This document shows, piece after piece, positions 25,722 to 27,870 of a stretch of 34,611 nt of DNA. The notes below the pieces were generated by a model. The model ran no database searches. It was not told where the DNA came from and worked only from the letters and a program-made list of their open reading frames with translations. The position numbers were made by a program, and so were the translations under genes. Source of the DNA: an uncultured Lachnospiraceae bacterium (GTDB lineage: Bacteria > Bacillota > Clostridia > Lachnospirales > Lachnospiraceae); the NCBI GenBank assembly GCA_947166195.1, contig CAMVDF010000004.1:1-34611 (forward strand). Reading direction: 5' to 3'. Position 1 is the stretch's first letter. Each line of letters opens with the position of its first letter.

Positions 25722-25908
25722 GGGCATCTTCATATATATTTTGTGAACAATAAGCCGTCAGTTCTTAGCGAATCCTAGGCTGATAAACCGTCGAGTACAC
25801 AACCTGCACGCTTTTTGTGCAGGTCTGTGGCGGAGACGGTTTTGTATATCAGACGACGGATGAGCTTAGAACTGGACGAGCCGTGAACAAAATACATATG
25901 AAGATGCC
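25722..25908 (-). ncRNA. Candidate structured ncRNA (rod-like, multi-stem, possible pseudoknot)
   Basis: 23-bp terminal stem GGGCAUCUUCAUAUGUAUUUUGU/ACAAAAUAUAUAUGAAGAUGCCC; inner stems CAGUUCU/AGAACUG, CUGAU/AUCAG, AAACCGUC/GACGGUUU, CACA-ACCUGCAC/GUGCAGGU-UGUG. The single non-Watson-Crick position in the terminal stem is a G-U wobble only when read on the minus strand. Confidence 0.65.
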
Positions 25909-25941
25909 CGTACCTTTGTCAATATTTTTATTACACTATGA

Positions 25942-27870
25942 TCAGAATTTCAGCACCACTGCTCCGAAGGGCGGCAGTGTGAATCCAACGGAATACGGCT
26001 GACTGTCCCAGGCGGTATCCTCCGCTTTCAAGACCGTTTCGATCTCGGTGCCCGTTCCGCCGTATTTCTTTTCATCACTGTTGAGCAGCAGCGTATACTT
26101 GCCCATCTTTGGAACTCCGACCCTGTAATCACTCCTCTTCATCGGGGTGAAGTTCACCACAAACACGAGACTGTCCTTTCCCGTGGAATTCATCCTGATG
26201 AACGAATACAGACTTTTTTCGGTATCATCGGCATTGATCCACTCAAAGCCGTCATTTGAATTGTCAAACTCCCACAGAGCACTGTATTTCCTGTAGAGCT
26301 TGAGCAGATCCGAAACAAAAAGCTTCATTCCCGCATGGAGAGGATCCTCGAGACAGTACCAGTCAAGTTCTCTCTCCTCGCTCCATTCTCTTTCCTGGGC
26401 AAACTCCTGTCCCATGAAAAGGAGTTTCTTGCCGCAGTGGCCGAACATGAAGGCATAGCCCGCTCTCAGATTTGCAAATTTGTCAACCTTGAATCCGGGC
26501 ATCTTCATCAGCATGGAACATTTCAGATGGACAACCTCATCATGGCTGAGCACCAGGATATAATTCTCCGAGGAATTATAACTCATGGCAAAGGTCATCT
26601 TGTAATGATTGTCCTTTCTGAAATAGGGATCCAGCTTCATATAATCACAGAAATCATGCATCCATCCCATATTCCATTTGAAGGAAAATCCCAGTCCGTC
26701 ATCTTCAGGCTTTCCGGTGACCTTTGGCCAGGCTGTTGACTCCTCGGCTATCATCACGGTTCCGGGGAAGGCACCCAGCACCTCGGAATTCAGATGCTTG
26801 AAAAATTCAATGGCCTCCAGGTTTTTATTACCCCCGTACTTGTTGGCCACCCACTGCCCGCTCTGCTTGCCGTAGTCAAGGTAGAGCATCGAAGCGACAG
26901 CATCAACACGAAGGCCGTCAATATGAAATTCCCTCATCCAGTAATTGGCGTTTGCTATGAGGAAATTCTTGACCTCATTCTTTCCATAATCAAAGATCTT
27001 TGTGCCCCAGTCGGGATGCTCTCCTTTTTTGGGGTCTGCATATTCGTAAAGCGGAGATCCGTCAAACATGGCCAGTCCGTGCGCATCTCTGGGGAAATGG
27101 GCGGGAACCCAGTCAAGGATCACTCCTATGCCGTTTTCATGGAATTTATTGATCATGTATCTGAAGTCATCGGGACATCCGTATCTGGAAGTCGGAGCAT
27201 AGTAGCCCGTGACCTGATAACCCCAGGATCCGTCAAAGGGATACTCGGACATACCCATGAGTTCAACATGGGTATAGGGCATCTCCTTGAGATATTCCAC
27301 TATCCTGTCGGTGAACTCACGATAGGAATAAAACCCGTCATTCTCCTTTGTGGGATGTCTCATCCAGGAACCGGGATGAACCTCATAAATGGCCATGGGC
27401 TGTTTGTTCATATCAAGCCCTTCCCTGCGTTTCATCCATTTTGAATCAGTCCACTTGAAGTGTGACAGGTCATATGTCCTCGAAGCCGTCCCGGGTCTCA
27501 CCTCCGCGTATGATGCATATGGATCTGCCTTGTAGAGGACACTGCCGTTTTCGGATACTATGTAATACTTGTAAAGGCTCCCCTCTCCGATCCCGGGAAC
27601 GAAACATGTCCATATCCCGATGTCCTCCATCCTCGTCATGGGATTTGCATCGGGTCTCCATTCGTTTATGTCTCCGACAAGGCTGACATACTTCGCATTC
27701 GGTGCCCATACCGCAAAGAAATATCCGTTCTCGCCGTTCTCACAGGAAGGATGAGCTCCAAGCTTTTTGTAGATCTCGTAATTCCTGCCGTTACCGAAAA
27801 GATAGGCATCCATCTGGCTGATCTCGATTTTCTGTATCACGGGTGTCTTTTCGTTTTTTGTCATCTTCAT
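25942..27870 (-). CDS. glgB: 1,4-alpha-glucan branching enzyme
   Basis: CBM48-like YFFAVWAPNAKYVSLVGDINEW; GH13 motifs VILDWVPAHFP, GLRVDAVASMLYLDY, IAEESTAWP, LSHDEVVHLK. Confidence 0.95.
   Translation of the reverse strand: MKMTKNEKTPVIQKIEISQMDAYLFGNGRNYEIYKKLGAHPSCENGENGYFFAVWAPNAKYVSLVGDINEWRPDANPMTRMEDIGIWTCFVPGIGEGSLYKYYIVSENGSVLYKADPYASYAEVRPGTASRTYDLSHFKWTDSKWMKRREGLDMNKQPMAIYEVHPGSWMRHPTKENDGFYSYREFTDRIVEYLKEMPYTHVELMGMSEYPFDGSWGYQVTGYYAPTSRYGCPDDFRYMINKFHENGIGVILDWVPAHFPRDAHGLAMFDGSPLYEYADPKKGEHPDWGTKIFDYGKNEVKNFLIANANYWMREFHIDGLRVDAVASMLYLDYGKQSGQWVANKYGGNKNLEAIEFFKHLNSEVLGAFPGTVMIAEESTAWPKVTGKPEDDGLGFSFKWNMGWMHDFCDYMKLDPYFRKDNHYKMTFAMSYNSSENYILVLSHDEVVHLKCSMLMKMPGFKVDKFANLRAGYAFMFGHCGKKLLFMGQEFAQEREWSEERELDWYCLEDPLHAGMKLFVSDLLKLYRKYSALWEFDNSNDGFEWINADDTEKSLYSFIRMNSTGKDSLVFVVNFTPMKRSDYRVGVPKMGKYTLLLNSDEKKYGGTGTEIETVLKAEDTAWDSQPYSVGFTLPPFGAVVLKF

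Follow-up and report, generated by a model that had tools for sequence, protein, structure and literature searches.

The segment at positions 25722-25909 of the window, by which we mean the whole 34,611-nt stretch of Lachnospiraceae DNA that was analysed, is one copy of a large dispersed family of long hairpin-forming repeats of rumen Lachnospiraceae. The family is apparently undescribed so far, and a word-based search of the open-access literature for it returned nothing relevant. The best reading, to which we assign a probability of roughly 0.6, is a dispersed, non-autonomous hairpin DNA repeat that is read as folded DNA, and the element is probably recognised in that form and not as a stand-alone regulatory RNA.

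The element in the window

The element lies between a gene for a GlgB-like branching enzyme and a DUF6240 gene, beyond which comes flagellin. Its parts and its two neighbours are as follows.

25722-25909, either strand: whole hairpin repeat element, 188 bp, seen from the fold z-score and ~20 genome copies
25722-25744, no strand assigned: left arm of the outer stem, GGGCATCTTCATATATATTTTGT, copy-specific in sequence with complementarity to the right arm retained
25887-25909, no strand assigned: right arm of the outer stem, ACAAAATACATATGAAGATGCCC
25739-25893, minus: conserved core, covariance model R1 match of 169.7 bits
25764-25772, plus: left half of the internal-loop motif, CTTAGCGAA, near-invariant, with a T.T mismatch and tandem G.A
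25861-25869, plus: right half of the internal-loop motif, TGAGCTTAG, near-invariant
25759-25765, no strand assigned: left side of the CAGTTCT helix, with CCCGCT/AGCGGG instead in another species group
25868-25874, no strand assigned: right side of that helix, AGAACTG
25802-25824, no strand assigned: tip hairpin ACCTGCAC-GCTTTTT-GTGCAGGT, enlarged or replaced in other subfamilies
25942-27870, minus: GlgB-like branching enzyme gene, the element starting 32 nt past its stop codon
22727-25534, minus: DUF6240 gene, then flagellin, on the other side of the element

The rod-like fold described from the letters alone holds on either strand. The minus strand of 25722-25908 folds at -89.5 kcal/mol, against -39.5 +/- 3.9 for shuffled sequences (z -12.95, with 0 of 200 shuffles as low), and the plus strand at -89.0 kcal/mol (z -11.3); since no shuffle came near the energy of the segment, the structure is well past chance level. 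The computed fold includes the terminal stem as well as CAGUUCU/AGAACUG, CUGAU/AUCAG, AAACCGUC/GACGGUUU and the hairpin at the tip, and the element is one base longer than the 25722-25908 first given for it. The TTGACA at 25922-25917 that had been noted as a promoter candidate does exist on the minus strand, where a consensus promoter scan gives no site.

Copy number and host range

The genome of the window itself gave 23 matches to the segment, with self-matches and partial copies counted, and further copies were present in the close relatives G001, G013 and G029. Of 37 genomes from the genus, 19 gave hits to a covariance model built on 39 copies, with 1-31 copies each and at least 20 in the window's own genome. 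The genomes used are mostly incomplete MAGs whose contigs may end within elements (as at L026, L031, L032 and L040), so that these assemblies understate how many copies there are. Outside the genus, the model found members at lower scores in 7 other genera among 249 sampled family-wide, and an order-level sample added one weak case. Pattern matching across 85,462 species genomes placed the family almost entirely in MAGs and isolates of rumen Lachnospiraceae, including NK4A144 and MC2017, while no copy was found in phages and plasmids by distant blastn or in viral contigs by pattern search. The subfamilies are species-specific, and the copies measured have cores of 74, 100, 131-138, 171, 199-204 and 287 nt.

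Conserved architecture

The outer stem is mostly 20-39 bp long, with a sequence that varies from copy to copy and near-perfect pairing within each. The secondary structure posited in the earlier note proved to be conserved and covarying: RNAalifold gave 43 pairs, 19 of them with double-sided changes, and in one species group (the G006 group) the whole CAGTTCT/AGAACTG helix is swapped for a paired CCCGCT/AGCGGG. The least variable bases are those in or beside mismatches, namely C-U-A and A-A-G around an A.A mismatch, together with a UC.CU tandem mismatch, which on the plus strand correspond to a T.T mismatch and a tandem G.A. Most of these bases occur in at least 90 of 94 copies (the C opposite U in 81 of 94), and both sides of the internal-loop motif were recovered, allowing each side up to 2 mismatches, in 90 of 94. 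Conservation peaks at the internal mismatches and not at the ends of the element. A pseudoknot between CCGU and ACGG, which had been thought possible, is not conserved, ACGG being found in 39 of 39 copies and CCGU in 10 of 39.

Covariation is widely accepted as proof of a functional RNA. The earlier note proposed a stand-alone non-coding RNA and was reminded of classes such as raiA or 6S. Such an RNA is not supported: a search of 4227 Rfam families, at gathering scores and at E<=1, gave no match, to raiA, 6S or any other family, at the element or at 10 related loci, the segment belongs to a dispersed repeat, and its covariation comes without wobble of the kind seen in SRP RNA.

Pairing and the wobble counts

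Selection acting on an RNA hairpin leaves G-U pairs in place and few A-C. SRP RNA of the same genus has 124 G-U and 2 A-C in 816 cells of the alignment, whereas the well-paired columns of the element, counted over 58 non-redundant copies, have 12 G-U and 14 A-C in ~2,150 cells; the P value of about 4e-58 for this difference is uncorrected for relatedness and, the copies being mutually related, too small. Many pair columns of the element carry three or four Watson-Crick types. The picture was the same in alignment A2, which was fitted to the model, and in the MAFFT alignment A1, made from sequence alone, where variable pairs had 1 or 0 G-U in ~200 cells. Codirectional copies read in transcript sense contained 29 G-U and 30 A-C. 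Watson-Crick covariation almost without wobble, and without an excess of G-U in transcript sense, is what leads us to the view that the pairing appears to be maintained at the level of DNA. Two-way transcription at convergent genes could be an alternative source of selection against wobble.

The same counts bear on the strand. The minus strand had been favoured on account of a single G-U pair, a preference not supported across the copies, where this strand has fewer G-U (28) than A-C (55; p 0.004, optimistic for the same reason of relatedness). A G.T mismatch disturbs a DNA helix less than A.C does, so the plus strand of the window, the one with T.T and tandem G.A, is the more likely candidate for the folded form, as far as pair counts can tell. 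Since this family fails both the wobble count and the transcript-sense count despite its covariation, a screen for non-coding RNA that relies on covariation only would misfile it.

Placement relative to genes

The copies are intergenic and mostly lie 3' of a stop codon, the stem often beginning a few tens of bases beyond it, so that the gene-end hairpin sits where a transcription terminator would be. With neighbours classified from mechanical ORFs, 54 copies had two classified neighbours, 16 being convergent, 34 codirectional and 4 divergent. The scarcity of divergent sites has p 0.01 against a 20% share and p 0.08 against a 15% share, both shares being assumed only.

This placement also speaks for the main rival, namely that the element is a structured RNA of 3' untranslated regions (a stabiliser, a processing site or a terminator-like structure) that was duplicated and is kept by selection on the transcript. 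Copies 3' of genes with few between divergent ones, the abundant double-sided covariation and the ordinary terminator-like hairpins at element-free sites would all suit such an RNA, and the plus-strand transcript would hold tandem G.A, a common internal-loop motif of RNA. We nevertheless consider it unlikely, because wobble is nearly absent, G-U and A-C are balanced in transcript sense, and the orientation towards transcription is random: at codirectional sites the element runs with the genes in 15 cases and against them in 19 (p 0.61), with no preferred orientation. Nor is there a consistent U-tract after the stem across the copies, and a terminator scan was negative there.

Probable mobility and element ends

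The element is probably mobile, judging by sites that are filled in some genomes and vacant in others and by cores that are near-identical at separate places, and a putative enzyme would be responsible for this. The earlier note had named scattered copies with target-site duplications as a refutation of its RNA and the sign of a MITE; the copies are indeed scattered, and the duplications were not found, only 2 of 63 copies having one of at least 5 bp where 1.0 was expected. A conventional MITE, that is, an internally deleted derivative of a DNA transposon whose terminal inverted repeats have since diverged, would account for short, dispersed, multicopy, ORF-free elements with inverted-repeat ends and species-wise amplification. 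It would be harder to reconcile with the chance level of target duplications, with arms that differ among copies of one genome so that no conserved DNA terminus exists, and with the strongest conservation at the internal mismatches instead of the ends. No transposase was found within any copy examined and no parent transposon with matching ends among the loci examined, and we regard a MITE origin as quite improbable.

Candidates for larger, transposase-bearing copies were also discarded, since the lone 5' halves that were inspected seem to reflect truncation, chance similarity or the end of a contig. A Y1 transposase gave one match each in G000 and G013 and none in G012, G009, G026 and G031, which have 9-23 copies (the genomes being incomplete); its occurrence is patchy and does not track copy number, and it is a doubtful partner.

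Site dynamics and possible template switching

Orthologous sites differ in what they contain. At the convergent site L140, the element is present in G000 and G001, while G013, G029, G012 and G007 have short terminator-like hairpins of four sequences. The site of the window copy holds in G001 a core of another subfamily in reversed orientation within a homologous outer stem, and in G013 only a short hairpin, GGCATCTTCAC-loop-GTGAAGATGCC, with the same stem. L036 equals L046 minus its core, an internal deletion, and the apparently orthologous L034 and L044 differ in core length, at 287 and 131 nt respectively. Over 141 bp, the core of the element in the window is 99% identical to that of L019, with different outer stems. 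As a separate observation, the difference between L034 and L044 consists of ~150 nt of extra tip hairpins, one of them with a core-like CTAA..GCTAAG, as if a related unit were nested there.

The notion of an outer stem that is in every case the target's own terminator, captured on insertion, was dropped, because the short G013 hairpin has GGCATC, as does the common stem of the family. With GGCATC in both stems, an element inserted into the loop of a hairpin and an older copy that lost its interior look alike at the window site. Hairpins of the type GGCATC..GATGCC exceed a control pattern, an excess that is partly due to other repeats.

Template switching between the arms of inverted repeats homogenises the arms and inverts spacers (PMC8604942) and maintains hairpins (PMC8794818). 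It could therefore be the source of the matched arms and flipped cores, though not of the preserved mismatches. In its pure form this process yields the last rival, a neutral quasi-palindrome without function, whose arms are matched by template switching alone and which spreads by segmental duplication or gene conversion. Perfect, copy-specific arms and the inversion or exchange of the core at one orthologous site fit the known products of such switching (PMC8604942, PMC8794818). Switching would, however, mend internal mismatches, yet these are among the best-conserved bases across species and genera, which points to recognition of the folded motif; the 3'-end placement and the amplification would be left unexplained, and to have another core subfamily at the window site takes an exchange or a separate insertion on top of template switching. 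We hold this explanation to be very improbable.

Proposed mechanism and known systems

In the folded-DNA reading that we prefer, the element would be recognised as a folded single strand during replication, transfer or extrusion under supercoiling, and a putative cellular or mobile-element protein would read the mismatch motif and thereby spread the element. Template switching during replication would keep the arms matched and may invert the core, and the gene-end hairpin would take the position of the terminator, where it may decay to a simple hairpin. More tentatively, and with clear reservations, the family might form a new class of rod-shaped, folded single-stranded DNA site whose stems are free in sequence and whose mismatches are fixed. 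A putative enzyme acting in trans would mobilise it, new copies would settle 3' of genes, template switching would rebuild the arms, and the cores would be swapped or flipped at the site they occupy.

Several known systems share some of these traits. REP, BIME and REPIN sequences are likewise intergenic, multicopy and hairpin-forming, and occupy chiefly convergent or codirectional sites (PMC3733652, PMC3116915), as do 50 of the 54 classified copies here. They differ in size, REP units having 20-40 bp, whereas the core of the element measures 74-287 nt and its outer stem a further ~20-39 bp, in the tight link of REP to a Y1/RAYT gene, which is not apparent for the element in these incomplete genomes, and in pairing, since GT pairs are frequent in REP stems (PMC3733652) and wobble is almost absent from the element. 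The bcr repeats of Bacillus cereus (bcr1 and others), likened here by description and not by sequence, are dispersed, intergenic, in part structured and of mobile-element character, bcr1-bcr3 having been described as MITE-like (PMC3446304); their host belongs to another Firmicutes branch. Integron attC sites resemble the element in principle, with stems of free sequence, key unpaired bases and recognition as a folded single strand (PMC2727003), but the core of the element, in an alignment read by eye, has a conserved GTTCTAA instead of the GTTRRRY/RYYYAAC boxes, and the element has no linked cassettes. Intrinsic terminators share its position, often tens of bases past stop codons, and terminator-like hairpins occupy the orthologous empty sites; the element differs from them in its far greater length, its conserved internal loops and its lack of a consistent U-tract. 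If the folded-DNA reading is true, a structure-recognised repeat family would be added to Lachnospiraceae, providing natural material on template switching at inverted repeats and on the origin of terminators.

Neighbouring repeats and element forms

Other repeats occur close to the element. Several elements in G000 and G001 are flanked by inverted, abundant REP-like palindromes; one such palindrome, GGGACAGGGGACGTTTCTCTGTCCC, has ~100 matches in G001, often as inverted pairs that occur with or without the hairpin element between them, as in the flanks of L020, L023, L027, L033, L038, L039 and others. Tandem arrays of hairpin repeats with a period of 63 or 73 bp (GGCATCGG..CCGATGCC and similar), apparently unrelated to the element, occur in G013 at C4:21517-21772, C7:22406-22661, C7:42874-43036, C8:3882-3991 and C38:4207-4389, and tandem repeats of ~22 bp, TTCAAGGCGCTCCGTCGGATGC, stand immediately before the element at L217 (G012).

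Head-to-head pairs of elements ~80-130 nt apart were seen at L227 (G027:C5), L263 (G139:C17), G139:C24, G139:C8, G006:C7 and G028:C98, those of G139 joining two different subfamilies. A G139 pair was considered as a composite transposon and rejected, as an ORF of transposase size is absent between the elements. Finally, L269 in G100, a genome of another genus, contains seven minimal hairpins of ~59-60 nt; the one that was read consists of little beyond a CTTAGCGAA/GAGCTTAG core and is possibly the smallest form of the element.
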